A model generated the notes under the pieces. It saw only the letters and a program-made list of their open reading frames with translations. It made no database searches and was not told where the DNA came from. The translations under genes were made by a program, and so were the position numbers. DNA of 64,000 nt from Rhizophagus irregularis (Eukaryota > Glomeromycota > Glomeromycetes > Glomerales > Glomeraceae), in the NCBI RefSeq assembly GCF_026210795.1, contig NC_089439.1, forward strand, positions 3,658,001 through 3,722,000, written 5' to 3'. Of this stretch, positions 2,283 through 64,000 are shown one piece after another; position 1 is the first letter of the stretch, and every line of letters starts with the position of its first letter.

Positions 2283-3164
2283 ATGAAAATGAAATATTTT
2301 AATATTATCACCCTATTAGCAGTTACTTTTATTATTTTTTGTATGAGAACGGCTGGCAAAATTGTAAAAGGAAAATATTTTGATCGTTTCTTTCTAATAA
2401 TTTTTGAAAACACCGATTACGTAACGGCAGTGAATGATCCTTACCTATCGGACTTGACAAATCGTCAGGATGGCATTCTTCTTTCTAATTTTTTCGCCGT
2501 TGAACATCCATCTGAACCTAATTACATAGCTCAAATATATGGTTCGACACTTGGAATATTAGATGATGCCGATTACAATGTGACCGGCAAGAATTTAGTC
2601 GACCTTCTTGAAGATAAAGGAATTTCTTGGAAAGCTTACATGGAAAACTACCCTGGCAACTGTTATCAGTATTCATTTGGTCCAAGCAATGACTCTTACG
2701 CACGTAAGCATAATCCATTTATTTCAATGGTGAACATACACGATGACCCTGTACGTTGTGCGAAAATAGTCAATGCTAGCCAGCTTGATATGGATATAAG
2801 TACGAATAGTGTACCACAATTTGCTTATTACACACCAAATCAGGACAATGATGCTCATGATACCAACCTCACGTTTGCAATGACATGGTTTAAAGGTTGG
2901 TTTGAACCAAAACTTCAAGATCCGGCTTTTACTACCAACACATTGTTCTTTATTACTTTTGATGAATCCGAGTCAAAAGGAGAACCGAATCAAATTTTTA
3001 GCAGTCTTCTGGGCACTCCAGTCCAACCGAATGTAAATCACAATGATGATACCTATTACACACATTTTTCGATAGCAAAGACCATTGAGGAAAATTGGGA
3101 TTTGCATGATTTGGGAAGGAATGATACCACCGCAACTCCTTTTACTAAATTTTTGATTAGTTAG
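2283..3164 (+). CDS. Secreted acid phosphatase (phosphoesterase family)
   Basis: Predicted 293-residue extracellular or wall phosphomonoesterase releasing phosphate from organic esters. The ATG at 2283 gives a typical signal peptide (about residues 1-24, hydrophobic core IITLLAVTFIIF); the open frame reaches back to 2169 only through a GTG, so I reject that start. Motifs of fungal phosphate-repressible acid phosphatases of the phosphoesterase (PF04185) family are visible in order: FENTDY (41-46), HPSEPNYIA (75-83), LLEDKGISWKAYMENYPG, ARKHNPF, TPNQDNDAHD, TFDESE and HFSIAKTIEENWDLHDLGR. Several N-x-S/T sites (for example NVT, NAS, NLT) fit glycosylation. The frame is uninterrupted, so the gene appears intronless, unlike the P450, BTB and ATPase genes here. 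A role in phosphate scavenging is inferred. Confidence 0.88.
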   Translation: MKMKYFNIITLLAVTFIIFCMRTAGKIVKGKYFDRFFLIIFENTDYVTAVNDPYLSDLTNRQDGILLSNFFAVEHPSEPNYIAQIYGSTLGILDDADYNVTGKNLVDLLEDKGISWKAYMENYPGNCYQYSFGPSNDSYARKHNPFISMVNIHDDPVRCAKIVNASQLDMDISTNSVPQFAYYTPNQDNDAHDTNLTFAMTWFKGWFEPKLQDPAFTTNTLFFITFDESESKGEPNQIFSSLLGTPVQPNVNHNDDTYYTHFSIAKTIEENWDLHDLGRNDTTATPFTKFLIS

Positions 3165-4464
3165 GAGTATCTATTTTCTCAATAGTTTCTTTTTTAACGC
3201 CTAATCTATTATAATGATTTATTCTATACAAATAATGAATTATACACAATGAAATATAAATAAAAAAAAGTATTTCTTTATTGTTTTTTTTTAAATTTTT
3301 ATTAACATTGTATAATCGTTATAATATACATGACTAAGGAATCAGGTAACCAAACCGGTTGCACCGGTTTTAACCAAAACGGCTCGAGTCCGAAAATGAT
3401 CGTGATCAACATATATTAATGGGAAATAAAGTCATTTTATAAAAGAAATAATATCAATCTTAGAATTTATGTAGTTCACCTGTTTCTATTGTTCGAAGCA
3501 TAATATTATGCCCCTATTATTTAATAACAATATTTATTTCCTATTTAAAATTTGCAAGTAACTTAATTTCGATATTCATGGTACTTTTATTTGTATACAC
3601 AATTCCTAATTCTTCATTCAAAATAACTACACTAATCATCCAATCATCGTTGTTATCATCGTTATTATTATAGATACTTACTTTTTTTTTATTATTTGGG
3701 CATGCAAGAAAAGGATTGTGTTACTATTTAGGAAATTTTATATAAGCACTGATAATGTACATGGTATTTGTACAATTAAAGAACGAAAATGGAGTTAATA
3801 GTATCGATATTATATTAATTAATTATCTATATTTATTTTTTTAACCTTTATGTGCATTTATTTCGATAGACCATTTTCAATTAATTTTTTTTTGTTTTAT
3901 TATTTTTATTATTGTAATATGATTTTATTTCAAAAATGCAAAAATCCCAGTAGTAATCGTAATAAAGGAAAATGGAATTTATTTTTTTAATACATAAAAA
4001 ATAAATACCTTAAGTATATTCAATAAGTTTTATGGGTTCAAAGGATTGGATATCTCGTGTTACACAAAAATCAGACAAACCGTTCGAAAAATGCAACCGA
4101 CCGGAATTGAACAGAGCTATTGTTTTAAAATGAAGACCTTAAGAAAATTAATAAAAAAACTTATCTATTCACTATTAGTTGCTGGTAAAGCATAAATATT
4201 TCAACTTAATTATAAACCTAAACTTCCAATATACTATCTATCCCAATATCCCAACTAAGGGATTTTTCTCACTGAACTCCCTCATGATTCTCCCCAATGA
4301 CACATATTTTCCGTCATCTCAACTGGTCATTTTAATTTTTATTTACACACGCTTTTTGAATTTTCAATAAGAAAATATACTTTATTTAATTAAATTCGAG
4401 TAAGAAAATTACATAAAAAAAAAAATAAATAAATCATGTTTGTATATAAGAATTAATATAACAT
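3165..4464. other. AT-rich intergenic region
   Basis: Spacer between the convergent acid phosphatase (+) and P450 (-) genes. It contains homopolymer and ATT-rich stretches and short open frames without coding character. No RNA gene or repeat family was recognised. Confidence 0.5.
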
Positions 4465-4475
4465 ATCAAGAAATC

Positions 4476-6189
4476 TTAATTTCTTGATTTAACTTTAACT
4501 AATAACTGAGTACAAGCAGATATAATGCCTGATCTAACTTGTAAAGGAGCTTCCATGTCTACAAGGTCAAAATCATATTTTCTATATATTAAAGCCGTTA
4601 AAGCAACCAATTCAATCATTGCTAGCTTTCTTCCTGGACAGACTCTTAATCCTCCACCAAACATGATAAAAGAATATTTCTTTGGCTCAAAACCTTCAAC
4701 CATCCATCTATCAGGATTAAACGTTTCAGGATCTTCCCAATAATTTTTATTTTTATGAATAGAAACAGCATTTACTTGAAACATTGTACCCCTTGGCCAT
4801 TTATACCCTGCTATTTCATCGGGTTCTGCACCATATCTTTGCAACATATTTGAAACTGGAAAAACGCGATCAACTTCTTTTATAACAGCGTCAATGTATT
4901 TGAATTGATGGAGATCTTTTTCAGTAATTGGACGAGTTTTATCATCTTGGAATACTCTATCAATTTCCTCTACCACTTTTCTTTTTACATCCGGATAATG
5001 TGCAAGATAATAGACAATGAATGAAATCATATTTGCGGTCTATATTTATATAAACATATTAATTTCCAAAATTAAAAAAAATAAAATAAAATAAAATAAT
5101 ATTTAAAAATTTATAACTTACCGTATCAGTTCCACCAATAAATGCGTCGAACATGATATGACGAATTTCAAGATCAGTCATAGGTCTATCCATAGATTCA
5201 CCACCAACAGTTTTAGTATAATTAATATCACGTGGTGTATTCGCGGTTATCACCGAGGTCAACATATCATGCGGTAAAGGTTTATCTAATGGTGTATTTT
5301 CAATTTCTTCTCTGCGTCTCTTAATAATTGAATCTACTTTATCATAAAGAAATTTGACGTTTCGAAGCGATTCATCTGATCTACCTTTAAAAAATGGAAT
5401 GTAATGTCGAATGAAAGGATTTACGAATATAAACATTACAATATTATTAATATGACTACGGAATGATTGAACAAATCTTTCCGAGTCTTCTACTATTGCT
5501 GGTGGATGATCAGTCTTTTCTTCACCCTGGTCATTAAAATAACCTGCCATTGTATAAGATCTTTCACCCGTTGTCAACGCGACAATCACATCATTGGTAA
5601 ATCGACTTAACCACGAAGCGAAATCGAGCACATTTTTGTTTTTCTTAATAACTTCTTCTTTGAGATACAATCTATCCCAATAATCTTCCATTTCAAGGAA
5701 CAATTTATTTGTCATAACAATAGCTTCCTGAGAGAATTTTGGTGATAAGATTGCTTGTGTAAAAAATTGACGATTAAATCTCCATGATTTTAAGTTATGA
5801 TTTAAAATAAGTCCCTTTCCCATCATTCCAATTTCTTCTAATCCTTGCATATAGGGAAGTCTCGTCATATAATGACTTTTTGTTGAAGGCATTAAAAGTT
5901 TATCAATATCTTCTGCTCGACTTAGAATTATACGTCGTGCTCCCAAATGAACTTCATATAAGTCACCATATTTCTTTTGATAAGCATCGAAGAATTCTCT
6001 GGCGTTTGCTTTATACAATATAAATTGAGGCAGATTTCCAACGAATGGGAATGGCAATGGACCAGGTAAAGGATTAACACGAGTAAAATATTTGTAATAA
6101 TAATGAGTTACATAGATAATTAATAAGACACCTATAAATGAAAGGTAGTCATTAATTCCAAGACCACTAAAAATTTTATGTAAAGACAT
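4476..6189 (-). CDS. Cytochrome P450 monooxygenase, copy A
   Basis: Two exons on the minus strand: 6189-5122 (356 codons) and 5039-4476. The 82-bp intron (GTAAGT...ATAG) is phase 0 and falls inside the I-helix motif, which splices to FIGGTDT/TANM. The protein is 543 residues. Visible features are an N-terminal membrane anchor (about 15-33), a proline hinge NPLPGPLPFPFVGN, the I-helix oxygen-activation motif (351-358), the K-helix ExxR as EVDR (411-414), FNPDRW (463-468) and the heme loop FGGGLRVCPG with Cys490. This is a microsomal ER monooxygenase needing a P450 reductase; the substrate is unknown. A near-identical copy lies at 9483-11187 and a decayed relative at 35004-35964. All motifs are intact, so I expect function. 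Confidence 0.92.
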
Positions 6190-9482: not shown

Positions 9483-11187
9483 TTAATTTCTTGATTTAAC
9501 TTTAACTAATAACTGAGTACAAGCAGATATAATGCCTGATTTAACTTGTAAAGGAGCTTCCATGTTTACAAGGTCAAAATCATATTTTCTATATATTAAA
9601 GCCATTAAAGCAACCAATTCAATCATTGCTAACTTTCTTCCTGGGCAGACTCTTAATCCTCCACCAAACATGATAAAAGAATTTTTCTTTGGCTCAAAAC
9701 CTTCAACCATCCATCTATCAGGATTAAACGTTTCAGGATCTTCCCAATAATCTTTACTTTTATGAATAGAAATAGCATTCACTTGAAACATTGTACCACT
9801 TGGCCATTTATACCCTGCTATTTCATCGGGTGCTGTACCATATCTTTGCAACATATTTGAAACTGGAAAAACGCGATCAACTTCTTTTATAACAGCATCA
9901 ATGTATTTGAATTGATTGAGATCTTTTTCAGTAATTGGACGAGTTTTATCATCTTGGAATACTCTATCAATTTCCTCTACCACTTTTCTTTTTACATCCG
10001 GATAATGTGCAAGATAATAGACAATGAATGAAATCAAATTTGCGGTCTATATTTATATAAACATATTAATTTCCAAAATTAAAATAAAATAAAATAATAT
10101 TTAAAAATTTATAACTTACCGTATCAGTTCCACCAATAAATGTGTCGAACATGATGTGACGAATTTCAAGATCAGTCATAGGTCTATCCATAGATTCACC
10201 ACCAACGGTTTTAGTATAATTAATATCACGTGGTGTATTCGCGGTTATCACCGAGGTCAACATATCATGCGGTAAAGGTTTATCTAATGGTGTATTTTCA
10301 ATTTTTTCTCTGCGTCTCTTAATAATTGAATCTACTTTATCATAAAGAAATTTGGCGTTTCGAAGCGATTCATCTGATTTACCTTTAAAAAATGGAATGT
10401 AATGTCGAATGAAAGGATTTACGAACATAAACATTATAAGACTATCAAAATGACTACGTAATGATTTAACAAATCTTTCCGAGTCTTCTACTATTGCTGG
10501 TGGATGATCAGTCTTTTCTTCACCCTGGTCATTAAAATAACCTGCCATTGTATAAGATCTTTCACCCGTTGTCAACGCGACAATCACATCATTGGTAAAT
10601 CGACTTAACCACGAAGCGACATCGAGCACATTTTTGTTTTTCTTAATAACTTCTTCTTTAAGATACAATCTATCCCAATAATCTTCCATTTCAAGGAACA
10701 TTTTATTTGTCATAACAATAGCTTCCTGAGAGAATTTTGGTGATAAGATTGCTTGTGTAAAAAATTGACGATTAAATCTCCATGATTTTAAGTTATGATT
10801 TAAAATAAGTCCCTTTCCCATCATTCCAATTTCCTCTAATCCTTGCATATAGGGAAGTCTCGTCATATAATGACTTTTTGTTGAAGGCATTAAAAGTTTA
10901 TCAGTATCTTCTGCTCGACTTAGAATTATACGTCGTGCTCCCAAATAAACTTCATATAAGTCACCATACTTCTTTTGATAAGCACCGAAGAATTCTCTGG
11001 TGCTTACTTTATACAACATAAATTGAGGCAGATTTCCAACGAATGGGAATGGCAATGGACCAGGTAAAGGATTAACACGAGTAAAATATTTGTAATAATA
11101 TTGAGTTATATAGATAATTAATAAGACACCTATAAATGAAAGGAAGTCATTAATTCCAAGACCACTAAAAATTTTATGAAAAGACAT
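9483..11187 (-). CDS. Cytochrome P450 monooxygenase, copy B
   Basis: Two exons, 11187-10120 and 10046-9483, with a 73-bp phase-0 intron (GTAAGT...ATAG) at the same I-helix position as copy A. The protein is 543 residues with the same anchor, proline hinge, GGTDTTA, EVDR, FNPDRW and FGGGLRVCPG heme loop. By eye about 37 residues differ from copy A (about 93% identity). Changes cluster at residues 57-67 and especially 238-251, where copy A reads QSFRSHINNIVMFIF and copy B KSLRSHFDSLIMFMF. That lies in the F-G region that lines P450 substrate channels, so the copies may differ in substrate. The first residue after the splice (T-A-N-L) differs from copy A (T-A-N-M). The reading frame is intact. 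Confidence 0.92.
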
Positions 11188-20515: not shown

Positions 20516-22057
20516 ATGTCAATATTTCTTTCAAAACTAAGTCAAAACTATCTTGAATTATTGATTGACGATGAATATTATGATATTACAATTGAAATTG
20601 GTGAAGATCCTGATGTAAAATTCTTTCGTGCGCATATGAATATTTTATATTACCGTTCACCATATTTACGACAAATTTTGACACCCAGTAAAAAGAATAA
20701 TGATAACGGTTTGACTCATGTTAAATTACCAAATACATCACCGGAAATATTTCAAATTATTTTAAAGTAAAGTTGTTTATAATTTAATGAGTTTTTTTTG
20801 ATTTTTTTTAAAAAAATTTTAATTAACTTAGTTTCAAATTTCCTTCCACAATGCAGGTATATTTATGGAGGCATACTTTCGTTAGATAATCAAGATACTT
20901 TTGAAAATTTTGAAGTCTTGATAACTGCAGAAAAGCTGCTTCTTCAAGAATTAGTTGATTATTTACAAAAACATTTTATCGAAAATGAGTCTGAATGGAT
21001 GGAACAACATTTTGAACTTATTTATCGAACAAGCTTTCAATCAAATCATTTATTAGAACTTCAACAATTTTGTCTAGATTTTATGGAGAAATCTCCGGAA
21101 AAAATATTTAAGTCATTCGATTTCACTTCACTTCCTGAAAAACCTTTAGTTCAACTCATTAAAAGAGATGATTTACAAATGAAAGAAATTGAAATTTGGG
21201 AACATTTATTAAATTGGGGACTCGCACAAAATCAAACACTTGATCCAGATCCTAATACTCCTAATAAATGGTCAGATGATGATTTTCAAACATTGAAAAA
21301 TATTTTACAAAATTGTTTACCTTTTATTAGATTTTTTAGTTTATCATCTAAAGAATTTTTACAAAAAGTTCGTCCTTATAAGAAACTACTAGAAAAACAA
21401 CTCTACGAAGATTTATTAAATTCTCATTTAAATCCTGATGGTAAACCATCTGACAACATTTTACTTCCTAGAACTGTTAAAAATGATGAAATTATTGATT
21501 CGGAAATTGTTAATTTAAATATTGTCTCAACTATTTCGAGGTGGATTGATAAAATAGATAATAATAATTTCGCTCATTTAAGAGAATTATATTTACCTTA
21601 TAAATTTCAATTATTATTAAGAGGAAGCAGTGATGGATTTTCTCCCAAAACATTCCATACACTCTGTGATGGTAAATCTATTACTGTAGCATTTATTAAA
21701 GTAAAAGAAACCGAAGAAATTCTTGGTGGTTATAATCCCATAAAATGGGTATCATCATCTGATCTTACTTATGGTAAAACTAAAGATAGTTTTATATTTT
21801 CTTTTAAAAATAAGAATAATTTTAAAGATCCAATTATTAGTAACGTAAAAAATATAGATTACGCATTAAATTATCACGCCAATTATGGACCATGTTTTGG
21901 TTCTTCAGATTTAATTACATATAATTCCAACGAAGATAGAGATTATGATACGAATTACTGTAATGAATGTCATTATGAAAAAAAGATAAGAGATACTGAG
22001 ACCAGATTTTCTATAGAAGATTATGAAGTATATCAAATCATAAAGAGACAAGTATAG
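20516..22057 (+). CDS. BTB-BACK-TLDc protein 1
   Basis: Exons 20516-20766 and 20857-22057 with a 90-bp intron (GTAAAG...GCAG); the splice joins IIL-K to YIYGG and gives 483 residues. The BTB/POZ domain (about 20-110) shows YYDITIEIGEDPDVKFFRAH. A BACK-like helical region follows (about 115-225: QELVDYLQK, FELIYRTSF). A TLDc domain closes the protein (about 300-480: LLLRGSSDGFSPKTFHTLCD, ETEEILGGYNPIKW, DSFIFSF, YGPCFGSSDL). BTB-BACK proteins typically serve as Cullin-3 substrate adaptors; TLDc domains are linked to oxidative-stress protection and V-ATPase regulation in other eukaryotes. The partner is unknown. It is the first of three paralogues with the same intron position. Its last third is nearly identical to gene 2. 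Confidence 0.9.
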
Positions 22058-22949: not shown

Positions 22950-24480
22950 ATGTCAACCCAATTTCTCTCAAAATTAAGTCAAAATTATGTTAAATTATTG
23001 GATGGTGATATATACAGTGATGTTACAATTGAAGTTGGTGAAGACCCCAATGTAAAAATCTTTCGGGTACATATGAATATTATGTGTTGTCGTTCCCCAT
23101 ATTTACGGCGAATTTTGACCTCCAATAAAAAAGATAGTGACAATGTATTATCTAATATTAAATTACCGAATATATCGGCGGAAATATTTCAAATTATTTT
23201 AAAGTAAGTTAATTTAATAAAATAATAATAATTCATAACCTTTTATTTCAATATCTTTATTTAAAAAAAAAATCTTTTATATTGTCAGGTATATTTATGG
23301 TGGGATTCTTTCATTAGAAGAACAGGACACTTCAAACATTATTAAAATAATGAAAGCGGCTGATGATCTATTGCTTCAAGAAATAGTTGATTATTTACAA
23401 AGATATTTGATTGAAAATAAATTCGAGTGGATGGAACAAAATTTTGAGCTTATTCATCAAACAAGTTTTCAATCAAATTATTTATTAGAACTTCAACAAT
23501 TTTGTACAGATTTAATGGCTAAATGTCCAGATAGATATTTTACATCACTCAATTTCACTTCATTATCCGAAAAATCTTTAACTCAACTTATTAAAAGAGA
23601 TGATTTACAGATGAAAGAAATTGAAGTTTGGGAATATGTATTAAAATGGGGTCTTGCACAAAATAAATCTCTCATTTTAGATCCTAATACTTGGTCAGAT
23701 AATGATTTCAAAACAATGGAAAATACCTTACAACATTGTTTACCTTTAATTAGATTTTTTAATTTATCATCCAAAGAATTCTTACAAAAAGTTCGTCCTT
23801 ATAAGAAATTATTAAATCAACAACTCTATGAAGATTTATTAAATTCTCATTTAGATCCTGATAATGAACCATCTGACAGTATTTCACTTCCTAGAATTGT
23901 TAAGAATGATGAAATTATTGATTCGGAAATTGTTAATTTAAATATTGTCTCAATTATTTCGAGGTGGATTGATAAAGTAGATAATAATAAATTTGCTCAT
24001 ATAAGAGAATTATATTTACCTTATAAATTTCAATTATTATTAAGAGGAAGCCGAGATGGTTTTACTCCCAAAAAATTTCATACACTATGTGATGGTAAAT
24101 CTATTACTGTAACATTTATTAAAGTAAAAGAAACGGAAGAAATTCTTGGTGGTTATAATCCTATAATATGGTTATCATCTTCTGATCTTACTTATGGTAA
24201 AACTAAAGATAGTTTTATATTTTCTTTTAAAAATAAGAATAATTTTAAAGATCCAATTATTAGTAACGTAAAAAATATAGATTACGCATTAAATTATCAC
24301 GTTAAATATGGACCATGTTTTGGTTCTTCTGATTTAATTACATATAATTCCAATGAGGATATGGATTATGATACGGATTACTGTAATGAATGTCATTATG
24401 AAAAAAAGATAAGAGATGCTGAGACTAGATTTTCTATAGAAGATTATGAAGTATATCAAATCATAAAGAGACGAGTATAG
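22950..24480 (+). CDS. BTB-BACK-TLDc protein 2
   Basis: Exons 22950-23203 and 23289-24480, with an 85-bp intron (GTAAGT...TCAG) at the same codon as in genes 1 and 3; 481 residues. The BTB domain has YSDVTIEVGEDPNVKIFRVH and CCRSPYLRRIL. The BACK-like part includes QEIVDYLQRYL and FELIHQTSF. The TLDc domain has LLLRGSRDGFTPKKFH, ETEEILGGYNPIIW and DSFIFSF. A 118-nt block of the TLDc coding sequence (24184-24301) is identical to gene 1 (21761-21878), including third codon positions, while the BTB halves differ clearly. Likely cytoplasmic ubiquitin-ligase adaptor; the target is unknown. Confidence 0.9.
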
Positions 24481-27961: not shown

Positions 27962-30900
27962 ATGTCAGGCGAATCAGGAAACTCAACTTCAGAACCTACC
28001 GTTCATCAGGAAGTGATAACTAAGATAACTTTAACAACTCATACAAATGATAATTCTCAATTTTCAGATAATTCTAAAAAAGATAATTCTGAAATTTTAG
28101 AAAAATCTAATAATGAGATTAGTGAAATTTCATCGCAATCAATGATTCAATTCAATGAACAACCAAAACCAGACCATTTTAAATCCGAGGCAAATTCATC
28201 TGGTGTAGAATCTGCTACAAGAACTCCACCTGCTACGAAAGAAACCAAAGGAAGCGATCCTAACAAGAAAAGTGTAGACATTGTAAATATTCATCTTTTT
28301 GTTTTGATTCGTTCTTATCATCTTATCAATTATTCCTTATCATTCATATCATTTAATTATTATCATATAATTCTTATCATCGCCGTTTTTCAAAATAATT
28401 AGTGATATAAAAAGATTACATGATTACCATGGTTATCAGGTGATTACCAGATGATTGTCAACATATGTCCTACTACACTATTGCGATAATCATTTAATTC
28501 TTATCATATAATTTCTTATCATACAGTATAATCTTATAATATAATTCTTATAATTCTTATCATATAATTCTTATAATTCTTATAATTCTTATCATATAAT
28601 TCTTATAATTCTTATCATATAATTCTTATAATTCTTATAATTCTTATCATATAATTCTTATAATTCTTATCATATAATTCTTATAATTCTTATCATATAA
28701 TTCTTATAATTCTTATCATATAATTCTTATCATTTAATTCTTACCATTTAATTCTAATTCGTATCATTTAATTCTTTTCGTTTAATTCTTATCATTTAAT
28801 CGTTTCATTTATTTTTCAATAATATAGGATGAACATTTACTTAACCCCGAAGAAGTCGCCGAACGATATCATGTTGATATTAATCCTTCTAAACCATCAG
28901 AATCTAAAGGGTTGAATGTGAATCAAGCTGAAAAGTTATTGGAAGAAAATGGTCCAAATATACTCACACCTCCTAAAAGGAAACATCCCATATTAAAATA
29001 TTTGGAATGTTTAATGACTTTATTCAACATATTATTAATTCTTGCTGGTATTCTGATGTATATTTTATTTGCTATTGATCCAGCTAATAATCAACCCAAT
29101 GTTAGTTATTTATTTATATTTTTAAAAAAAATTTTAATTATCAAAAGGATTTGTATAAATAGTAACAATCTTCTCTTTTCTTTATTTTCAGACTTACCTT
29201 GGTGCTATTTTCCTTGGAGTGGCTTTTTTGAACGCATTTATTGAATTTTATCAATTACAAAAGTCGGCTGCAATTTTAGAGTCATTTTTAAATATGATCC
29301 CACAACAATGTTATGTTATTAGAGAAGGTAAACTCTTACAAATCCAAGCATCTACTTTAGTTCTTGGTGATATAGTTTTTATAAAGATGGGAGATAAAGT
29401 TCCCGCAGATTTATTTGTATTCTCCGCAACTGATATGAAAGTAGATAATTCTTCTCTTACTGGCGAATCAGAACCACAAGAAAGATTGAAAACTAATACT
29501 TATAGCAACCCATTAGAAGCTACTAATATTTGCTTTAATGGTACATTAGTAGTATCAGGCGAAGGCTTTGGTATCGTTATCAGAACTGGAGATAATACTG
29601 TATTGGGTCAAATTGCTGGTCTTACTGCAGGGGAAGAAAAGAATAAGTCACCTTTAGCAGTAGAAATTGATAAATTCGTAAAAATTATAGCTACTATTGC
29701 CATTTTATGTGGTATTATTTTTTTCGGAATTGGTATGAAGATTATGCCAAATAATCTTACTGCCAACGTGGCTTTCGCCATTTCTGTACTTGTTGCATGG
29801 GTGCCCGAAGGATTGCCAGCTACTGTTACTATACTTTTAACAATAGCAGCAAAAAGGATGGCGGCACAAAATGTTCTTGTCAAGGATCTTCAGGGTGTCG
29901 AAACACTTGGAGCAATTACCCTTTTGGCTACAGATAAAACTGGAACTTTAACTCGAAATCAAATGACTGTAACTTATATTTGGACTTCCTTAAATATTTA
30001 TTCCGCATTTCAAAGTGTACAATCCGAAAATACTCCTTTTGATCCAAGTGTGCCCGGTATTCAGGAAATTATTCATATATCTTTTTTATGTTCCCGTGCT
30101 AAATTTGATCGTACTGATGTTCCATTTAATGAACGTGCAATTCTTGGTGATGCTACTGAAACTGGGTTAATAAGATTTGCCCATCAAAATGTGGATGATT
30201 ATGATGGACTTATTAATTCATATCCAAAAGTTTTTGAAATTCCTTTCAATTCTGAAACAAAATGGGCATTAACAATTCATAAAAAGAGACATGAAAAGGG
30301 AGATTTAACTTTATATATTAAAGGAGCACCAGAACGAGTTCTTAGACTTTGTTCTACGATATTATCAGATAACGATGCAATTCCTTTAACTGACGAACAT
30401 CAAAAAAATTATGATGAAGTATATGAGTTTATGGCTTCAAAAGGACATCGAGTTTTGGCTTTTGCAAGATTATTGTTACCAAGTGATAAATATCCTGAAA
30501 ATTATGAATTTAAAAAAGAAGATAAAAATTACCCGACTGGAGATTATTGTTTTGTTGGATTATGTTCACTAGAAGATCCTCCAAAACATGGTGTTCGTGA
30601 AGCTATTGGAAGTTGTCGTCGTGCTGGTATTAGAGTAATGATGGTGACTGGTGATCACCCTTTGACCGCCGAGTCAATTGGTCGAAAAATTAATTTAATG
30701 ATATCAGATACCAAACCGCTTATTGCTAAAAAAACTGGTCGACCTATTGAGTCAATTCATGAAAGTGAATATAATGCTATTGTAGTTCATGGTGAACAAA
30801 TAGATTCTTTAAGTGAAAATGATTGGGATACCGTCTTTTCTAAAGATGAAATTATTTTTGCACGTACTTCTCCTTCACATAAACTTGAAATTGTTAAACG

Positions 30901-32098
30901 TGCACAATCCTTAGGTCATATCGTTGGCGTGACTGGTGATGGTGTAAATGATTCTCCCGCTTTGAAAAAAGCCGATTTAGGTATTGCTATGAATCAATCT
31001 GGATCTGATGTTTCTAAGGAAGCGGCTGCCATGATCTTAATGGATGATAATTTTGCTTCTACAGTAAAGGGTATTGAAGAAGGTCGCCTCATATTTTCAA
31101 ATCTTAGAAAGTCTATTCAATACACTATTTCTCATTCAACTCCAGAAGTTGTTGTTTCATTATTATTCGTTGTAGTACCCATTCCATTACCGTTAACACC
31201 AATCCTTATCTTAGTAACTGATTTAGGATTTGAATTATTTATAGCTCTTACATTCGCTTGGGATAAACCTGAAAGCAAGAAAGGTCTTATGAAGGTACCT
31301 CCTAGAAAGCCTGTTACTGCTAGTTCAATAGAACGTGTACGTCGTATTGCTCTTAATCGTACTCCAACCGTTAGGGATTCAGAGGGTCGACTCATACCTC
31401 CTTCAAAGCTTTCAATTTTCTTGCACAATATTAAAAAACCTTTTACAGCAAGTTTTTGGGCTGAATTATTTGAAAGTACTGATGAAGAATTATTAGTTGA
31501 TGGAAATCTTCTCTCCTGGTCATATTTAGAAATTGGTGTTATAGAAGCTATTGGCGCATTGGTCGCATATTTTGTAGTTTTGAATCATCATGGCATTACC
31601 CCATATGATACACGAATAATGCAACAAGAAGTACCCCAAAAACATTATTTTACAGATAATGCAGAAACTTATATAAGTATTCATAATCAAGAAATTACTA
31701 AGGATCAGCAACTTCGAGCTTATTACGAAGCACAATCTATTGTATATTTATCTATCATGATTCAACAAATCTTCAATTTATTTGCTTGTAAAGCTCGACA
31801 CCGGTTTCCATTTGGTAAATTTATGTTCTCAAATCCTCGTAATTTTATTGGAATATTTTTTGGTGCAGGATTAGGCATGTGCATTGTGTATATTGAACCA
31901 TTTAATGTTGCATTTAATACAAGTTATACGCTTAGTCCCTTATTTTGGCTAATTCCTTTTGCATTCGGTGTATATATATTGATTCATGCTAGCATTAGAA
32001 TACTTATTTTTAGACGGATGAATCCAGTAAATTTGAATCCAGAAATAATAGGATTACAGATGCATCCTACTGTACATTCTATCGAAAGAAAAGTCTAA
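27962..32098 (+). CDS. P-type IIC cation-transporting ATPase (Na+,K+-ATPase alpha-like)
   Basis: Exons 27962-28282, 28828-29100 and 29192-32098, both introns phase 0; 1166 residues. The N-terminus is a Ser/Asn/Lys-rich, probably cytosolic tail; the cation-ATPase N domain follows (DEHLLNPEEVAERY, LLEENGPNILTPPKRK). Catalytic motifs: TGES (288-291), PEGLP in M4 (403-407), phosphorylated Asp446 in DKTGTLT, and TGDGVND (779-785). The segment YLGAIFLGVAFLNAFIEF and FLNMIPQQC match Na,K/H,K-ATPase alpha rather than fungal ENA or SERCA pumps. It should act at the plasma membrane or an internal membrane, exporting one cation against another; specificity is uncertain because ion-site residues differ (His846, Glu879). 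The L6/7 loop is about 50 residues longer than in animal pumps. Neighbouring BTB-TLDc genes appear unrelated. Confidence 0.93.
28283..28827 (+). repeat. 545-bp intron 1 of the cation pump, largely an ATTCTTATCATATA minisatellite
   Basis: From about 28495 to 28745 the intron consists of TAATTCTTATAATTCTTATC and close variants in a higher-order array. Its ends are GTAAAT and ATATAG. It is six to seven times longer than the other introns in the window. Confidence 0.8.
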
Positions 32099-32836: not shown

Positions 32837-34356
32837 ATGACAACCCAATTTCTTCCAAAATTAAGCCAAAACTATATTGAATTATTAGAAGATGATGTAT
32901 ATTATGATACCACAATTGAAGTTGGAGAAGATCCCAATGTAAAAATCTTTCGTGCACATAGGAACATTTTGTGTTGCCGTTCTACATATTTACGACGAAC
33001 TTTGGTACCTAACAAAAAGAATAATGATGTTTTGGCTCATATTAAATTATCAAATATACTGCCAGAAATCTTTCAAATTATTTTAAAGTAAGTTAAATTT
33101 AAATAATAAATTAAATAAACCATCATCTTTTATTCAATAATGTTTTAAAAAATCTTTTATAATATAGGTATATTTATGGCGGCATTCTTTTGTTAAACGA
33201 GCAAGATACTTCAAATATTGTTAAAGTAATGGTAGCAGCAGATGAATTACTTCTTCAAGAAATAGTTGATTATTTACAAAATTATTTGATTAAAAATAAA
33301 TCTGATTGGATAGAACAACATTTTGAATTTATTCATCGAACAAGTTTTCAGTCAAATTATTTATTAGGACTCCAACAATTTTGTACAGATTTAATGGCCA
33401 AATCTCCAGAGAAAATATTTAAGTCACTTGATTTTACTTCACTTCCCGAAAAATCTTTAGTTCAACTTATTAAAAAAGATTATTTACAAATGAGAGAAGT
33501 CAAAGTTTGGGAACATCTATTAAAATGGGGTCTTTCGCAAAATCCAACTCTTATTTCAGACCCTAATAATTGGTCAGATGATGATTTTAAAACAATGGAA
33601 AATACTTTGCAACATTATTTACCTTTAATTAGATTTTTTAGTTTATCATCTAAAGAATTCTTACAAAAAGTTCGTCCTTATAAGAAACTACTAAAAAAAC
33701 AACTCTATGAAGATTTATTAAATTCTCATTTAAATCCTGACAGTGAACCATCTGATAACATTTCACTTCCTAGAACTGTTAAAGACGATGAGATTATTGA
33801 TTCAAAAATTGTTAATTTAAATATTATCTCAGTTATTTCAAGATGGATTGATAAGGCAGATAATAATAAGTTTGCTCACTTAAGGGAATTATATTTACCG
33901 TATAAATTTCCATTATTATTAAGAGGAAGCCGAGATGGGTTTACCCCTAAAATGTTTCATAAATTATGCGATGGTAGACCCGCTACTATTGCGTTTATTA
34001 AAGTAAAAGAAACAGAAGAGATCCTTGGTGGTTATAATCCTACAACATGGTTTACTACTTCTGATATTATTTATACTAAGATGAGAGATTGTTTTATATT
34101 TTCTTTTAAAAACCGGGATAATTTTAAAGATGTAGGTATTAGTTATGTGCAAAATACAGCAAGTGCATTACAACATAACAAAAGATTTGGTCCAATTTTT
34201 GGTAATGATCTTGTAATTTGTAATTCTAAAGATGAATCTAAAGATTATGATGTGATTTCCTGTCAAAAAATTCATTATGAAAAAAAGATAAGAGATTGTG
34301 ATGATACAAGATTTTCCATAGAAGATTATGAAATATTTCAAATCATAAAAAGGTAA
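32837..34356 (+). CDS. BTB-BACK-TLDc protein 3
   Basis: Exons 32837-33087 and 33168-34356 with an 80-bp intron (GTAAGT...ATAG) at the family position; 479 residues. BTB: YYDTTIEVGEDPNVKIFRAH. BACK-like: QEIVDYLQNYL, FEFIHRTSF. TLDc: LLLRGSRDGFTPKMFHKLCD, ETEEILGGYNPTTW, DCFIFSF, RFGPIFGNDLVI. Its TLDc tail is clearly more diverged from genes 1 and 2 than they are from each other, and it stops slightly earlier (IIKR). It is separated from the other two by the cation pump. The function is presumed the same: an adaptor joining a BTB dimer to a TLDc module. Confidence 0.9.
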
Positions 34357-41948: not shown

Positions 41949-43166
41949 ATGTCAAATTCTTGGTCAAAATTAAATTTGAATAAAAAAATCATCAATATTA
42001 CATCGGATATTTCCAATGATAATATTAATGATGAAGAAAATTTTTTAAAAGAATTTTCAAAAGATTTTTATCAAAATATTATTAATATGAATGATCTTAA
42101 TACTTTTGAAGAAACTTTAAATGAATGGATGAAAAATATTGATAAAGATACTGAAACAATTTTAGAATTAATGAAAAATCATAAAGAAAATGAATTATGG
42201 TTTTCAAGTATTATTGGATATTTTTATCAAAATGGTATCAGTTGTGATATTGATAAAAATATGGCATTTGATTTATATTCATTAGCTATTAATAATATAA
42301 AATCTAAAAATTTAAATTTATTGGAAGAAAATGATAATGAATTTATCATATTACAAAACATTAACATTAATATTGGGAAATATCTTTTAACATGGTTTTA
42401 TTATAAAGATGTTATATTAAATAAAATAAATACACGTAACTTAAATAAATATTTAAAATCTGCTATAAAAGGTGATTCAATGGCTCAATATAATATAGGT
42501 TACTGTTATGAACATGGTCGAGGGGTAACAAAAAATTATAATAAAGCATTTGAATATTATTTTAAATCTGCTAATAATGGGAATGCTTTAGGACAAAATA
42601 GGTTGGGTGTTTTTTATGAGAAAGGAATTGGGACTGGTAAAGATTATAATAAAGCATTCGAATGGTATTTTAAATCGGCTAATAATGGATGTATTTTGGG
42701 ACAAACTAATTTAGGGGATTGCTATTATCATGGAAAAGGAATAACACAAGATTATAATGAAGCATTTGAATGGTATTCTAAATCTGCTAATAGTGGATGT
42801 GCTTTAGGTCAATATCATTTAGGTAATTGTTACTGTTATGGAAGAGGAGTAACGTATGATCATAATAAAGCATTTGAATGGTATTACAAATCTGCTAATA
42901 ATAGATATTCTTTGGCTCAGAAAAGTTTGGGACATTGTTATGAAACAGGAATTGGAGTAGATAAAGATCATAAGAAAGCATTTAAATGGTATTCTAAATC
43001 TGCCAAGAGTGGATGTGCTTTAGGTCAATTTCATTTAGGTTACTGTTATCATTATGGTATAGGAACTAGCATAGATACTAAAATAGCAATTTATTGGTAT
43101 AAAAAATCTTCGGATAATGGAATAGTACGTGCAAACATTATGTTAACGAAACATTACGTTAAATAA
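41949..43166 (+). CDS. Sel1-repeat protein, 405 residues
   Basis: Single uninterrupted exon. An Asn/Asp/Lys-rich N-terminal part (1-75) and one diverged repeat (about 80-115, IGYFYQNGISCDIDKNMAF) precede six consecutive 36-residue Sel1-like repeats (about 172-390). Each has the pattern AQYNIGYCYEHGRGV-x5-KAFEYYFKSANNG. Sel1 repeats fold as an alpha-solenoid scaffold for protein interactions, as in SEL1/Hrd3 ER quality control and in many signalling proteins. In AM fungi they often follow a kinase domain; none is present here, nor is there a signal peptide, so this is a free-standing, probably cytosolic scaffold. Repeats 3, 4 and 6 share near-identical phrases (SGCALGQ), suggesting recent internal duplication. 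Confidence 0.9.
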   Translation: MSNSWSKLNLNKKIINITSDISNDNINDEENFLKEFSKDFYQNIINMNDLNTFEETLNEWMKNIDKDTETILELMKNHKENELWFSSIIGYFYQNGISCDIDKNMAFDLYSLAINNIKSKNLNLLEENDNEFIILQNININIGKYLLTWFYYKDVILNKINTRNLNKYLKSAIKGDSMAQYNIGYCYEHGRGVTKNYNKAFEYYFKSANNGNALGQNRLGVFYEKGIGTGKDYNKAFEWYFKSANNGCILGQTNLGDCYYHGKGITQDYNEAFEWYSKSANSGCALGQYHLGNCYCYGRGVTYDHNKAFEWYYKSANNRYSLAQKSLGHCYETGIGVDKDHKKAFKWYSKSAKSGCALGQFHLGYCYHYGIGTSIDTKIAIYWYKKSSDNGIVRANIMLTKHYVK

Positions 43167-51515: not shown

Positions 51516-52976
51516 ATGTCTGGTGTAGTCTTACCTACCCCTCAACAAGTTTTCAGTTATCAACCTCTTGTTCAAAAACAACTTGTCATCAAAAAACCAA
51601 TCGTAAAAATTATTCCTTATATTCCTCCTGAAGTTATTCGTATTATCCTTTTTTATTTAAGAAATGACAAGAAAACCCTCGCTGCTTGCGCTTTAGTCAA
51701 TCAAACTTTTAATCTACATGTCACTCCCATATTATACCATACCGTCTCTTTCTCTTTCCCTTATACTTTTACTTTATTCGCTAAAGCTACTATTAGTGAA
51801 TCTCAACGTTCTCGAATGATTCAACATTTAGATCTCTCAGGTTTCTCTACAATGGGATTACAAAAAAGCGATTCTGCAATTCAAAAGGTGGTCACTCCTC
51901 AAATTCTCATAAACATCTTAAGATCTTGCACAATGTTGGAAGCTTTCTCCGTATCTGAAACTTTGGAATCCTCGGTCACTTTTGATGTTTTAAAAGTTCT
52001 CGTATTTGAATGTAAGAATATTAAAGCTTTGGATTTTTGTGGATTATCATCCAAACAATTCTGTTCAGCTCTTGCATCCTTAGCAGAGGCTATGGGACAG
52101 GTTAAACTTGTTCGACGTTTTAATGATGAAGAGAATGATGATGATGATGAAACAAGAATTTCATTTCAAAAAATTAAAACTCCAGTATTACCACACCTTC
52201 AACGTCTTTCTCTTCATAAATGTCCAATCATTCCCGAGTATTCAACCATCCTCACTTTACTTGCACATTCACCAAATCTTACTCACCTTGATCTAGGTGG
52301 TTGTTCTATCAGTGATTCAACTCTTGATTTTCTTGCAACTGAAACTAATGTTAAGAAAACATTAAAACATTTATTACTTGCAAGATGTAAAAACATTTCT
52401 TCAGAAGCTATTGCAAATTTTGTGGCTGAATGTGAACAACTAGAAGTTCTTAATGTTTATGATACGATCATTAGTGAATATGATCTTATCACTATATTAA
52501 ATTCCCCTTCAGCAAAAATATTCAAAAATTTAGATATTGGATCATCTTACATAACACCACGTGTTTTATACGCTATACAAGAAAATTGTACCTCATCTTT
52601 ACAATATCTTGGAATTGCACATGCAAATATTTCATCAATTTCTCACCTTAATGAATTCTTAAAAGCGATGCCAAGTATTCAATATATTGATCTTACAGGG
52701 GTGTCATGTCTAACAGTATTGGAGACAAATAATCTTTTCAATGATCTACAAAATGATCATTCACTTCAAGTTATTGAAATGAGTGAATCTTTACTAAAGA
52801 AACTTGGACCCATCAACGGATGGAAGATCAATGAAACTTATAATAGAAGATGGTATTACTTTAAGGAAACACTTGAAACAAAACCAGATAGATTTCACCC
52901 AAGAAAGTTAGACGTGGCTGAATCCGGGCCAGAAAGAATGAGCAAGATCTTCCAATATTACAGTTTTGATGTGTGA
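51516..52976 (+). CDS. F-box/LRR protein, 486 residues
   Basis: Single exon. An F-box-like domain at about 35-78 (YIPPEVIRIILFYLRNDKK, LAACALVNQTFNLHVTPILY) is followed by irregular leucine-rich repeats (about 85-440), best seen in LQRLSLHKCPII, LTHLDLGGCSISD, LKHLLLARCKNISSEAI, LEVLNVYDT and IQYIDLTGVSCL. An acidic insert (NDEENDDDDETR) lies near residue 205. F-box/LRR proteins recruit substrates to SCF (Skp1-Cullin-1) ubiquitin ligases through the LRR solenoid. The C-terminal tail KINETYNRRWYYFKETLE is outside the LRRs. Codon use is richer in C-ending codons near the start than in neighbouring genes, consistent with a well-expressed conserved gene. Confidence 0.88.
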   Translation: MSGVVLPTPQQVFSYQPLVQKQLVIKKPIVKIIPYIPPEVIRIILFYLRNDKKTLAACALVNQTFNLHVTPILYHTVSFSFPYTFTLFAKATISESQRSRMIQHLDLSGFSTMGLQKSDSAIQKVVTPQILINILRSCTMLEAFSVSETLESSVTFDVLKVLVFECKNIKALDFCGLSSKQFCSALASLAEAMGQVKLVRRFNDEENDDDDETRISFQKIKTPVLPHLQRLSLHKCPIIPEYSTILTLLAHSPNLTHLDLGGCSISDSTLDFLATETNVKKTLKHLLLARCKNISSEAIANFVAECEQLEVLNVYDTIISEYDLITILNSPSAKIFKNLDIGSSYITPRVLYAIQENCTSSLQYLGIAHANISSISHLNEFLKAMPSIQYIDLTGVSCLTVLETNNLFNDLQNDHSLQVIEMSESLLKKLGPINGWKINETYNRRWYYFKETLETKPDRFHPRKLDVAESGPERMSKIFQYYSFDV

Positions 52977-59203: not shown

Positions 59204-59400
59204 TCAAAATTTTACATTTTTGGCACCTAACTCGCATTTTTTATTAGCACAATCATAGCAAATATTGTGTTCAATACAACAACACATTTGATATGGTGTG
59301 CAATTTTCACAACCAGCGAGAGCTGTTTTAATATGTATAATAGTACAAACATGAAAAGAGTAACTAAATGCATGAAATTAAAATGTCTCGGATTCATCAT
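59204..59400 (-). pseudogene. Decayed homologue of the secreted Cys-rich peptide
   Basis: On the minus strand a start region MMNPRHFNF matches MNPRYLISF of the intact gene at 60880, but one extra T and further indels shift the frame within the signal peptide. The mature region is open in the corrected frame: IKTALAGCENC, TPYQMCCCIEHNICYDC, ANKKCELGAKNVKF, then TGA. Its eight cysteines follow the same framework (C-x2-C-x5-CCC-x5-C-x2-C-x4-C) as the intact gene. So this is either a recent pseudogene or a gene with unusual splicing in the leader. Orientation is opposite to the intact paralogue. Confidence 0.7.
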
Positions 59401-59563
59401 AGTGAAATTGGGTTAAATATGCAATCATTATAAAGTAATGAGTTGTTTTTTGAAATTGATTGTCGGGAAGAACTATAGTTATGATAAAATCATAAGGTGC
59501 AAAGGGAGAACCTTTTTATATCTTTCGCGTAAGTTTGAAAATCAATCGTCAGAAACAACCATT

Positions 59564-60195
59564 AACGGGGTAACAGATTCACCTAGAGCTGAACAAATAG
59601 GAATAAAATTAGCACTACCCAAAGATTTTGTCCAATAAGGTTACGTTAATTCAGGAATCAATCATATGCATAAAAAAAAATTTTTTTGTTCGTGAAAATA
59701 TATCAGACACAGTAATGGGCAAGGTCAGGGTCTGGTTAATTTCACTTTCTGACAATCATTATTCCTACGATCATTTCACTGACAATCATTACTCCGACGA
59801 TCATTACTCCGACGATCATTTCAACCGACAATCTTTTTTCTTCAGGTCATCTCACTGACATTTTAACGTTATCTAATTTAATATATGCAAATATATGCAG
59901 TACATTATACATAGCTTCAAATTTTTTTTTATTATCGCATATCATTTACTATCATTTTTAGCTGTGTCCTATAAAAACGAAATGTGTTTATATTTGTACT
60001 CGCGTGTAATAAATGTCTAAAAAAGCACCATTTTATTTAAATTTGTTTCGGACAAAAATGGTGCTTTTTAGACGTTTTTTACACATGAACACAAATATTT
60101 CATTTTTATAGGGTATGATGAGCAAAATAATTTATTTTCCTTAAAAATCAGCAAAATGAACTGTCGATGAAGGTGAAGTAATTGTTGGTGAAATT
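59564..60195. repeat. Duplicated segment, copy 1 (with hairpin MITE)
   Basis: Matches 63375-63945 in the same orientation. Both have ATTAA(C/T)GGGGTA(A/G)CAGATT, a long conserved stretch around AGCACTACCCAAAGATTTTG, GACAATCATTATTCCTACGA, the hairpin MITE, and CAAAATGAACTGTCGATGAA. Copy 1 has additional GACGATCATTACTCC units. Confidence 0.8.
59967..60113. mobile_element. Hairpin MITE family, copy 2 (147 bp)
   Basis: Starts TCCTATAAAAACGAAATGTG and ends CATTTTTATAGGG; arms pair through AAATGTCTAAAAAAGCACCA and its inverse. It is preceded by AGCTGTG and followed by TATGATGAG. It was inherited with the surrounding duplicated segment and is therefore at the same site as copy 3. Confidence 0.85.
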
Positions 60196-60759
60196 AACAA
60201 AACCAATTGGCCTTACCCATTGCTGTGTCCATTTTCATAAAAATTCGATACGAGCATCAATAAAAAGTTATTTCCGCAAGTAAATAATTCCGGGATTTTA
60301 CGGAATGATAATTCCTTATTATATTTCGATCTTCAAATTCTTTAATTCTGTGATTCACAAGATGATTATTAGTAAATGGAATTCAAAGTGCATAGCAAAT
60401 TCACGAAGTTAAATTATCTTCAATTTATATTATTGTGCTTTTCAAAATTGTGACTAGTAACCCATGAAAAAGTGATTATTCTAAATTATTTTATAAAAAA
60501 GTTTTAAATTTGAAGCCGTATTAATACAAAATTGGATATTTTACCCGACAATCGTCTCATTTAATTTTCGGATCGGCAGAAGACCAGAAGTTCAGCGTGA
60601 AACTTTTGTATAAAAAAGAAAAAAAAGTATCAGTAAGGGGCAATGTCAGATACTGACCGAGTCCTGGTAATTTCTATTGCTAATTTGTGTAAACATCGGA
60701 CAGTCTTATTATGATTATTCCAATGGTTGATTGTGAAATTGATTTACCTACGCGATAGA
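60196..60759. other. Spacer upstream of the secreted peptide gene
   Basis: AT-rich with no coding frame recognised. It leads into the promoter at 60760. Confidence 0.4.
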
Positions 60760-60766
60760 TATAAAA
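60760..60766 (+). promoter_or_regulatory. TATA box of the Cys-rich peptide gene
   Basis: TATAAAA lies 113 bp before the start codon at 60880, with pyrimidine-rich and A-rich leader sequence between, consistent with a compact fungal promoter. Confidence 0.5.
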
Positions 60767-60879
60767 TGGTCTCTCTTTTACACCTTTTGATTTTTTCATA
60801 ACTATTAGTTCTCTCAGTACAATCAATTTTAATAACAACACATCACTCATAATAATTACACATTTAACTCAATTTCATC

Positions 60880-61056
60880 ATGAATCCGAGATATTTAATT
60901 TCATTTATTTATCTCACTCTTCTCATATTTTGTACTATTAATATTAAAACAACTCTCGCTGATGATGGTTGTGATGGAAAATGTAAGCTACCCCTAAAAT
61001 GTTGTTGTATAAAAGAACCCGAAACTTGCTTTTGTACTACTGGTGGATGTTTCTAG
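60880..61056 (+). CDS. Small secreted cysteine-rich peptide, 58 residues
   Basis: Single exon. The first 27 residues (MNPRYLISFIYLTLLIFCTI, NIKTTLA) form a typical signal peptide with likely cleavage after TLA. The mature part of about 31 residues holds eight Cys: C31, C35, C41-C42-C43, C50, C52 and C57, framework C-x3-C-x5-CCC-x6-C-x1-C-x4-C. It fits up to four disulfides or a metal-binding fold. Too short for common gene finders; I do not recognise a named family. A homologue with the same framework lies inverted at 59204-59400. Small secreted Cys-rich proteins of AM fungi are often host-induced effector candidates, but nothing here proves that role. No catalytic motif is visible. Confidence 0.78.
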   Translation: MNPRYLISFIYLTLLIFCTINIKTTLADDGCDGKCKLPLKCCCIKEPETCFCTTGGCF

Positions 61057-61759
61057 ATATCATATCGATTTTGATTTTGATTATTCTTCTTAAAAAATCA
61101 TTCCATAATGAATATTCCTTCTTCATATTTATTAATGTTATTATTTCTTCTTACTATTTTTGGCTTGCCTGTGTAGTTAAGACGTATAAATTATACAAGC
61201 AAGCGTCTTTTTGAGGCTTAAATTGATGAAGTTATATCAAAAATTAATCTCTTAAATATACTGATTTTTTTTTTTAAAAAAAAATATGAATTGTTCTTTA
61301 TTTTCGAAAACTTTAAATTGTAATCATTGTCCAATTTTCATTCAGTATTCGTGTAGTTGAATCAAATTTTATTTTTTTGTAAAAACTGAAATCAAATGTA
61401 CAATTATTGTAAGATTTATTACATTTAATAAACAGAAATTACAATTTGTAGCTATTATTTATTAAATTCGTACAATTTTTTCAATATTTTTTTTAAATTT
61501 CATATGAAATTTATGAATTTTGTAATATAAATCTGTAATTAAATTATTCATCACTTTTAGTCTACTTTTGTCAATAAATAATTTTCACGTAGTTAAAAAA
61601 TAATTATATTGACGAAAATAATTTACTAACTAACTTACATATATACCGCTATCGCTATTCTATAATTTCGCACGTTATTTAGGAAATTCCTGTTTATTTG
61701 ATTCCGAAATTCGAACACATGTGTTCCAAAGAAAAACAATTCACTGGTCGAAGTGGTAT
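61057..61759. other. 3' flank of the peptide gene
   Basis: A 71-codon frame at 60999-61214 overlaps the peptide gene in another frame and continues with hydrophobic residues; I judge it a shadow. A T/A tract lies near 61267-61286. No other feature. Confidence 0.4.
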
Positions 61760-61900
61760 AGTTTCCACTATGGAAACCTTGGTGTACGTGATTGAAACTT
61801 GTCCAATTTGCATAACATTTCCATAACACTTCCACAAAAAATGGAAACTTCATTGAAATCTGGCATACACCATGGAAAATTGGACAGGTTTCTGATAGTA
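61760..61900. repeat. Imperfect inverted repeat with GGAAAC motifs
   Basis: GAAACTTGTCCAATTT (about 61793) pairs with AAATTGGACAGGTTTC (about 61878), one mismatch. Outer GGTGTAC and TACACC also pair. GTTTCCACTATGGAAAC at 61768 is a separate palindrome. Confidence 0.5.
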
Positions 61901-61974
61901 TAAACTTCATGTAAATCATACTATATCTTCGACCTGTGATTAGTAGAGAAGGAATAAAAGAACTAATAAATAAA

Positions 61975-62110
61975 TTCATCCATAAACTTATCATACATAT
62001 TCTAAATTGATTCAAAATTTTATGTATTATAAAAAACATCCTTCCCTTGAAATATATTTAATTTCGATGCAATCAATTATAATGTAAATTGAGTGATTTT
62101 CTCAATGACT
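61975..62110. repeat. Second copy of the 58725-58900 segment
   Basis: Same order of blocks as the first copy, including ATATATTTAATTTCGATGCA, in the same orientation. With the pair 59564/63375 it shows that the locus around the Cys-rich peptides was duplicated. Confidence 0.65.
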
Positions 62111-63374: not shown

Positions 63375-63945
63375 CATTAATGGGGTAGCAGATTTCACCT
63401 TGATCTGAACAAATAGGAATAAAATTAGCACTACCCAAAGATTTTGTCCAATAAGGTTACGTTAGTTCAGGAATCAATCATATGCATAAAAAAAAAAATT
63501 TTAAATATGTCAGGGTCCTGGTTAATTTCACTTTCCGACAATCATTATTCCTACGATCATTTCACCAACAATCACAATTACTTCACCGACAACCTTTTTT
63601 TCTTCAGGTCATCTCACTGATATTTTAACGTTATCTAATTAAATATATGCAGTACATAGCCCAAATTTTTTTATTATCGCATATCATTTACTATCATTTT
63701 TAGCTGTGCCCTATAAAAACGAAATGGGTTAATATTTGTACTCGCGTGTAATAAATGTCTAAAAAAGTACCATTTTATTTAAATTTTGTTTCGGACAAAA
63801 ATGGTGTTTTTTAGACGTTTTTTACACATGAACACAAATATTTCATTTTTATAGGGTGTGATGAGCAAAATAATTTATTTTCCTTAAAAATCGGCAAAAT
63901 GAACTGTCGATGAAAGTGAAGTAATTGTCGGTGAAATTAACCAGC
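63375..63945. repeat. Duplicated segment, copy 2 (with hairpin MITE)
   Basis: Direct copy of 59564-60195. The two share several blocks of 30-60 identical or nearly identical bases. It ends exactly where MITE copy 4 is inserted. Confidence 0.8.
63709..63856. mobile_element. Hairpin MITE family, copy 3 (148 bp)
   Basis: CCCTATAAAAACGAAATGGG to CATTTTTATAGGG; flanked on both sides by TGTG (63705-63708 and 63857-63860), a candidate 4-bp target duplication. The empty-site relative at 58440-58560 has a single TGTC here. Confidence 0.85.
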
Positions 63946-64000
63946 CCCTATAAAAACGAAATGTATTAAATTTGTTGTTCATGTGTAATAAATGTCTAAA
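63946..64000. mobile_element. Hairpin MITE family, copy 4 (cut by window edge)
   Basis: The first 55 bases, CCCTATAAAAACGAAATGTA through AATGTCTAAA, are identical to the left arm of copy 1 at 57638. It is inserted in the duplicated segment at a point where the first copy (about 60190) has none. Confidence 0.8.

Follow-up and report, generated by a model that had tools for sequence, protein, structure and literature searches.

In this work we analysed a window of 64,000 nucleotides from the arbuscular mycorrhizal fungus Rhizophagus irregularis (C11:3658001-3722000, within a searched genome of 146,748,485 bases in 32 contigs), and we concentrated on a 58-residue open reading frame (ORF) on its forward strand, here called W. 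W belongs to a coding family of at least eight intact paralogues that keeps an eight-cysteine scaffold, changes its other mature residues faster than neutral DNA, and has been shaped by duplication and decay. That this is a genuine coding family under unusual selection we regard as nearly certain. Judging from the sequences, its products may well be apoplastic effectors directed at the host plant. The features are collected in Table 1.

A preliminary description of the window had seen a single gene here, whereas the genome search reveals a family. The frame lies exactly where it had been claimed, and the eight cysteines in a 31-residue mature part, the CCC triplet, the framework C-x3-C-x5-CCC-x6-C-x-C-x4-C and the TATAAAA box are all borne out. 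The leader is probably cleaved after A27, and the mature cysteines are then residues 31, 35, 41, 42, 43, 50, 52 and 57; they make up 26% of the mature part, with CCC and C-x-C motifs, and the frame stops one residue past the last of them. A ninth cysteine, at position 18, lies within the leader. Mean Kyte–Doolittle hydropathy is 2.5 for residues 6–20 and -0.07 for the mature part. The window contains one ORF of 35–120 amino acids with at least eight cysteines, against a mean of 0.005 and a maximum of 1 in 200 first-order Markov sequences. A chance frame, or a gene standing alone, is ruled out by seven more intact copies in the genome.

Six of the intact paralogues are found on C11 within 36.4 kb, one is on C7 and one on C8; the same set was obtained from protein searches with four queries and from DNA searches with three. 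None of the eight ORFs has an internal stop. All eight encode a hydrophobic leader, near-identical across the family, followed by a mature part of 31–37 residues that always includes at least one aromatic residue. Net charge is -2 to 0 in the seven members with eight cysteines and +2 in the C8 copy, H, and the first cysteine spacing ranges from 2 to 4 among nine members. The six C11 copies sit in duplicated segments: C and D are inverted relative to each other, in segments of about 1.38 kb with 90% identity, and W and B have stretches of 0.4–0.9 kb in common at 80–89% identity. Decay is visible as well. One copy in the window is frameshifted: its reading frame breaks off within the leader, and all eight cysteine codons are preserved in a different frame. 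A remnant retains only the promoter, the upstream region and the first part of the leader. The TATAAAA box stands 101–129 nucleotides before the ATG in seven of the eight intact copies, H being the exception; the frameshifted copy has it at -123, and in the remnant it takes the altered form ATACAAAA. Upstream of the ATG, W is 93–95% identical to its three closest paralogues, and promoter identity across subfamilies is otherwise 37–49%. The conserved TATA box argues for transcription of the family.

Across the eight intact members the scaffold retains 62 of its 64 cysteines, and both missing ones are in H: the middle residue of the CCC triplet and the first cysteine in C-x-C. Their joint absence suggests that these two residues form a disulfide pair. 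Pairwise comparison of W, B, C and D (six pairs) shows a leader free of synonymous differences and with few of any other kind. In the mature part outside the cysteines, four independent pairs (B–D, W–C, E–F and G–H) together show changes at 2.7 of 65.7 synonymous sites and at 60.3 of 234 non-synonymous sites (Fisher p=6e-5, on rounded counts). A codon maximum-likelihood model with three partitions, three subfamilies, shared branch lengths and an assumed four-taxon topology gave omega values of 0.49 for the leader, 0.48 for the cysteines and 8.7 for the other mature codons, for which omega=1 was rejected (twice the log-likelihood difference 29.6, p=5e-8). Taken alone, the non-cysteine mature codons gave an omega of 9.5 (p=4e-4), with p=0.007 in the four-member group and p=0.03 for G/H. 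The non-synonymous divergence of B–D, W–C and E–F, 0.26, also exceeds the divergence of their 5' flank (17/587, p=1e-17) and 3' flank (54/484, p=1e-5) in an alignment that excluded H. The E–F pair illustrates this pattern, with 98% identity in the promoter, 99% in the upstream region, 96% in the leader, 74% in the mature part and 89% in the 3' flank. In-frame indels are of 3 nucleotides, except for an 11-nucleotide gap near the frame end in W compared with B, C and D, and in E compared with F. In conclusion, the non-cysteine mature residues evolve faster than both synonymous sites and flanking DNA.

The mature part of W is modelled as a beta-hairpin (precursor residues 40–44 and 49–53) with a predicted local distance difference test score (pLDDT) of 80.6; the full-length model, with a pLDDT of 67.1, was too poor for a structure search. 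Eight of the ten Foldseek rows for the mature model are follistatin, EGF, laminin or Notch-EGF entries, and hhalign against four FOLN-like fragments gave a probability of 73%. The cysteine spacing of the FOLN (follistatin/osteonectin-like EGF) hairpin (PF09289), C-x4-C-x5-C-x8-C-x-C-x3-C in follistatin-related protein 3 (FSTL3), resembles C-x3-C-x5-C-[CC-x6]-C-x-C-x4-C in W; W, B, C and D have the spacing of this hairpin if the two extra cysteines are disregarded, and the loops differ in other members. Membership of a FOLN/EGF-like family was nevertheless rejected, as none of nine mature members passes the curated PF09289 profile, against which an FSTL3 fragment used as positive control scored 29.3 bits (cut-off 21.1). 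A follistatin domain was rejected too, since no Kazal subdomain follows the hairpin before the frame ends. The likeness of the predicted mature fold to a follistatin/EGF hairpin with two added cysteines is weak, and is not one of membership. Defensins have a CS-alpha-beta fold, in which a helix with C-x3-C is bonded to a C-x-C strand, and metallothioneins have no leader peptide and few or no aromatics; W has no helix in its mature model, a first spacing that varies within the family and no Pfam match, which does not fit a defensin, and the leader and aromatic residues of the members do not fit a metallothionein. Precursor and mature parts had no significant match in Pfam, the mature parts of nine out of nine members matching no family there at E<=10. 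NCBIfam gave no credible match, a hit of one of eight members to KwaA at E 0.056 being taken as chance. No PDB sequence matched the full family profile at E<=10, and the best matches to the mature profile, FSTL3 (2kcx; E 0.45) followed by human defensin-5 (E 0.95), are not significant.

A profile search of 5.8 billion proteins returned 21 candidates, two of them relatives, and searches with each of these two returned only themselves. The first relative, P0002, is RhiirA4_539614 of R. irregularis isolate A4: it has the family leader, then ADDRCDGK, then a different tail, which is also encoded by a reading frame downstream of paralogue B. It differs from all copies in the present genome next to the cleavage site. 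The second, P0003, from a 529-nucleotide ENA contig, has a related leader and a different cysteine pattern, so the family leader may carry more than one scaffold. On a conserved open frame in related isolates, whose absence the preliminary description had named as a refutation, the outcome is mixed: the frame is intact in seven paralogues of the same genome, and isolate A4 carries a related locus whose protein has no Cys-rich part.

The features by which small cysteine-rich secreted effectors are recognized, a leader, fewer than 200 amino acids and richness in cysteine, are all present in these sequences. Since leader and cysteines are fixed and the remaining residues change fast, the product probably meets something that itself changes. 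The leader and the even number of cysteines indicate an extracellular location, and because the fungus is an obligate root symbiont, the changing partner is most likely in the plant apoplast. In such a model, the TATA promoter and the conserved leader would send an eight-cysteine peptide of 31–37 residues out of the cell, where it is predicted to form a small beta-hairpin held by four disulfides. Tandem and inverted duplication would produce copies and decay would remove some, selection would hold the cysteine scaffold and alter the remaining residues, and the peptides would act in the apoplast by binding a variable plant target, for example a receptor or a secreted hydrolase. We infer the secretion, disulfide bonds, expression and host target of the family. 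Of the three functions guessed at in the preliminary description, the host-directed effector is the best fit, as a candidate; metal binding and a classical cationic antimicrobial are both weakened by the leader peptide, the aromatic residues of each mature part and the net charge of the seven eight-cysteine members.

Several observations weigh against the effector interpretation. The predicted template modelling score of the mature part is only 0.38, and P0002, the sole named relative, is the protein without a Cys-rich part. The E/F pair gives p=0.18 even with cysteines excluded, and two of the group estimates lie at the upper bound. Exclusion of the cysteine columns was our own choice as analysts, and when cysteine codons are included the mature-only omega falls to 2.9 (p=0.029), with p values of 0.13, 0.41 and 0.20 for the three groups taken singly. 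Finally, an antimicrobial or self-recognition role would account for diversifying selection as well as an effector role would. Small size, a leader, a cysteine scaffold and diversifying selection are typical of antimicrobial families, and all four are found here, as would be expected of antimicrobial or competitor-directed peptides that are released into the soil or the apoplast of the root, or that act on bacteria living inside the hyphae or on their surface. However, classical antimicrobial peptides are cationic (non-cationic ones exist), so the neutral to acidic charge of the seven eight-cysteine members argues against this class, H being the only cationic member, and no defensin or other library family was matched; we consider an antimicrobial role unlikely. 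Recognition of self or mates, with isolate-specific ligands acting between hyphae or nuclei by a logic akin to that of other polymorphic cysteine-rich ligands, would explain why the leader is fixed and the mature part variable, why copies are clustered with pseudogenes, and why the A4 relative is distinct from every copy here beside the cleavage site. Among the ORFs neighbouring the cluster at 3722–3766 kb, which were listed only and not profile-searched, we identified no receptor gene, and we view such a role as rather improbable.

A different kind of objection treats the Cys-rich stretch as an intron, or as rarely translated, with an A4-type protein of another C-terminus as the real product. 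P0002 matches the product expected from splicing of GTAAG to an AG past the cysteine part, its sequence after RCDGK continuing with what is encoded downstream of B, and W, B, C and D carry both the splice donor and the acceptor; the would-be intron of W contains six of its eight cysteines plus the stop. In the seven copies checked, H not among them, the GTAAG donor is nevertheless missing in E and F, and the scanned stretch of E, F and G has no [CT]AG acceptor. Furthermore, the same stretch keeps in-frame cysteine codons among copies otherwise only 48–60% identical there, with a non-synonymous excess that an intron would not be expected to produce, which makes this explanation very doubtful. 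On our reading, the A4 gene model is probably a prediction in which the true coding part has been passed over, although an alternative splice form may exist. The least probable proposal, which we find scarcely credible, is a secreted metal-binding or thiol-buffering peptide: the cysteine share with its CCC and C-x-C motifs favours it, and the aromatic residue in each mature part, the paired cysteine loss in H and the excess of amino-acid change, unexpected for a simple metal ligand, speak against it.

Returning to the apoplastic effector candidate, a wider proposal can be put forward, to which we lend limited credence: an arbuscular mycorrhizal fungus may have a hypervariable ligand system of its own, a conotoxin-like gene array in which a fixed leader and an eight-cysteine EGF-hairpin-like scaffold present fast-changing surfaces, engaging a mutualist in an arms race or in genotype-specific recognition with plant hosts or other isolates, and hidden from gene models by a tiny coding part with splice-site look-alikes.

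Table 1. Features of the W family; plain positions are those of the window, C-numbers denote contigs
Feature	Position	Strand	Basis or remark
Paralogue W, intact ORF, 58 amino acids	60880..61056	+	ORF reading and genome paralogue search
Leader (putative signal peptide), 27 codons	60880..60960	+	Hydropathy; cleavage site putative
Mature eight-cysteine part of W	60961..61053	+	Sequence, alignment, structure model
TATAAAA box of W	60760..60766	+	Sequence scan
Region immediately 5' of W ATG, probable 5' untranslated region	60780..60879	+	Transcription start inferred
Would-be intron in W under A4-type splicing	60983..61056	+	GTAAG donor, TAG acceptor
Frameshifted paralogue (pseudogene)	59207..59397	-	Frame lost inside leader
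TATA box of frameshifted copy	59514..59520	-	Sequence scan
Duplicated flank	59578..60198	+	More copies at 63394-63941, upstream of paralogue B
W	C11 3718880	+	DNA and protein genome searches
B	C11 3723066	+	DNA and protein genome searches; starts just outside window
C	C11 3733259	-	DNA and protein genome searches
D	C11 3735238	+	DNA and protein genome searches
E	C11 3743858	+	DNA and protein genome searches
F	C11 3755105	+	DNA and protein genome searches
G	C7 3412071	+	DNA and protein genome searches
H (C8 copy)	C8 about 3222268	-	DNA and protein genome searches
Remnant copy	near C11:3739727	-	Promoter, upstream region, first leader part only

The surroundings of the family contain other elements. 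A weak match to paralogue G, in an open frame, lies at C1:394203-394331 (+; E 0.37). Stop-to-stop frames of at least 95 codons are few at C11 3716–3757 kb: a repeat present twice, a single frame that overlaps B, and a set of three overlapping low-complexity frames. A 140-codon stop-to-stop frame with no known content is located at 61638-62057 (-) of the window and again beside B (C11:3724166-3724465, -); its DNA is found a third time near C11:3737901, and it is probably a repeat forming part of the duplicated unit. A 15-nucleotide unit is repeated in tandem in 4.7 copies at 59751-59820, just upstream of W. A short inverted repeat, with arms of about 35 nucleotides that are 82–83% complementary, occurs at 59990-60098 and 63731-63842, with a partial third copy at 63946-64000, the window end; it looks like a small element of the miniature inverted-repeat transposable element type. 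Elsewhere in the window, three similar genes (20999-22057, 23350-24480 and 33229-34356) reflect tandem amplification; the second and third have BACK and TLDc domains in Pfam, and the first is alike by eye. Two genes at 4476-6189 (-) and 10066-11187 (-) are near-identical cytochrome P450 genes by eye, Pfam having been run on the second only. Other genes encode a phosphoesterase-family protein (2283-3164, +), a P-type cation ATPase (29294-32098, +), a Sel1-repeat protein (41949-43166, +) and a leucine-rich repeat protein (51516-52976, +) whose F-box-like match is weak and falls below the cut-off.

Arbuscular mycorrhizal fungi are widely believed to steer the symbiosis through the proteins that they secrete. 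Arms-race evolution is routine in pathogens and, to our knowledge, hardly documented in these proteins; a family that is clustered, holds its cysteine scaffold invariant and has a strong excess of amino-acid change would make such evolution testable in a mycorrhizal symbiosis. The family also illustrates that genes of this kind can escape notice when a gene model takes their tiny coding stretch for an intron. Conotoxin-type and plant SCR/SP11-type families likewise combine a fixed leader, a variable mature part and a fixed cysteine scaffold; the likeness is one of architecture only, an analogy for which we claim no sequence relation. The SCR proteins of R. irregularis and G. rosea resemble the W peptides in being small, Cys-rich, predicted to be secreted and without a Pfam domain, but the accessible part of their description reports that they are not organised in protein families, whereas the W peptides form one (Kamel et al., 2017; PMC5293756). 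The paper on R. clarus effectors, as far as its accessible text goes, contains a list, by length and cysteine content, of 104 small Cys-rich R. irregularis proteins (PMC4746824). The SP7-like effectors of Glomeromycotina are, in the part of their description available, a multi-member secreted family of the same fungus, and differ from the W products, which are tiny, Cys-rich and without visible repeats (PMC11333574). We found no description of a family like W in mycorrhizal fungi in the open-access literature, supplements not covered, nor any significant library match, and the earlier label of an undescribed secreted eight-cysteine micro-peptide is supported as far as tested. Small cysteine-rich secreted effectors were already known; what is new, as far as we have seen, is the W family with its CCC framework and the way in which it evolves in a mycorrhizal fungus.
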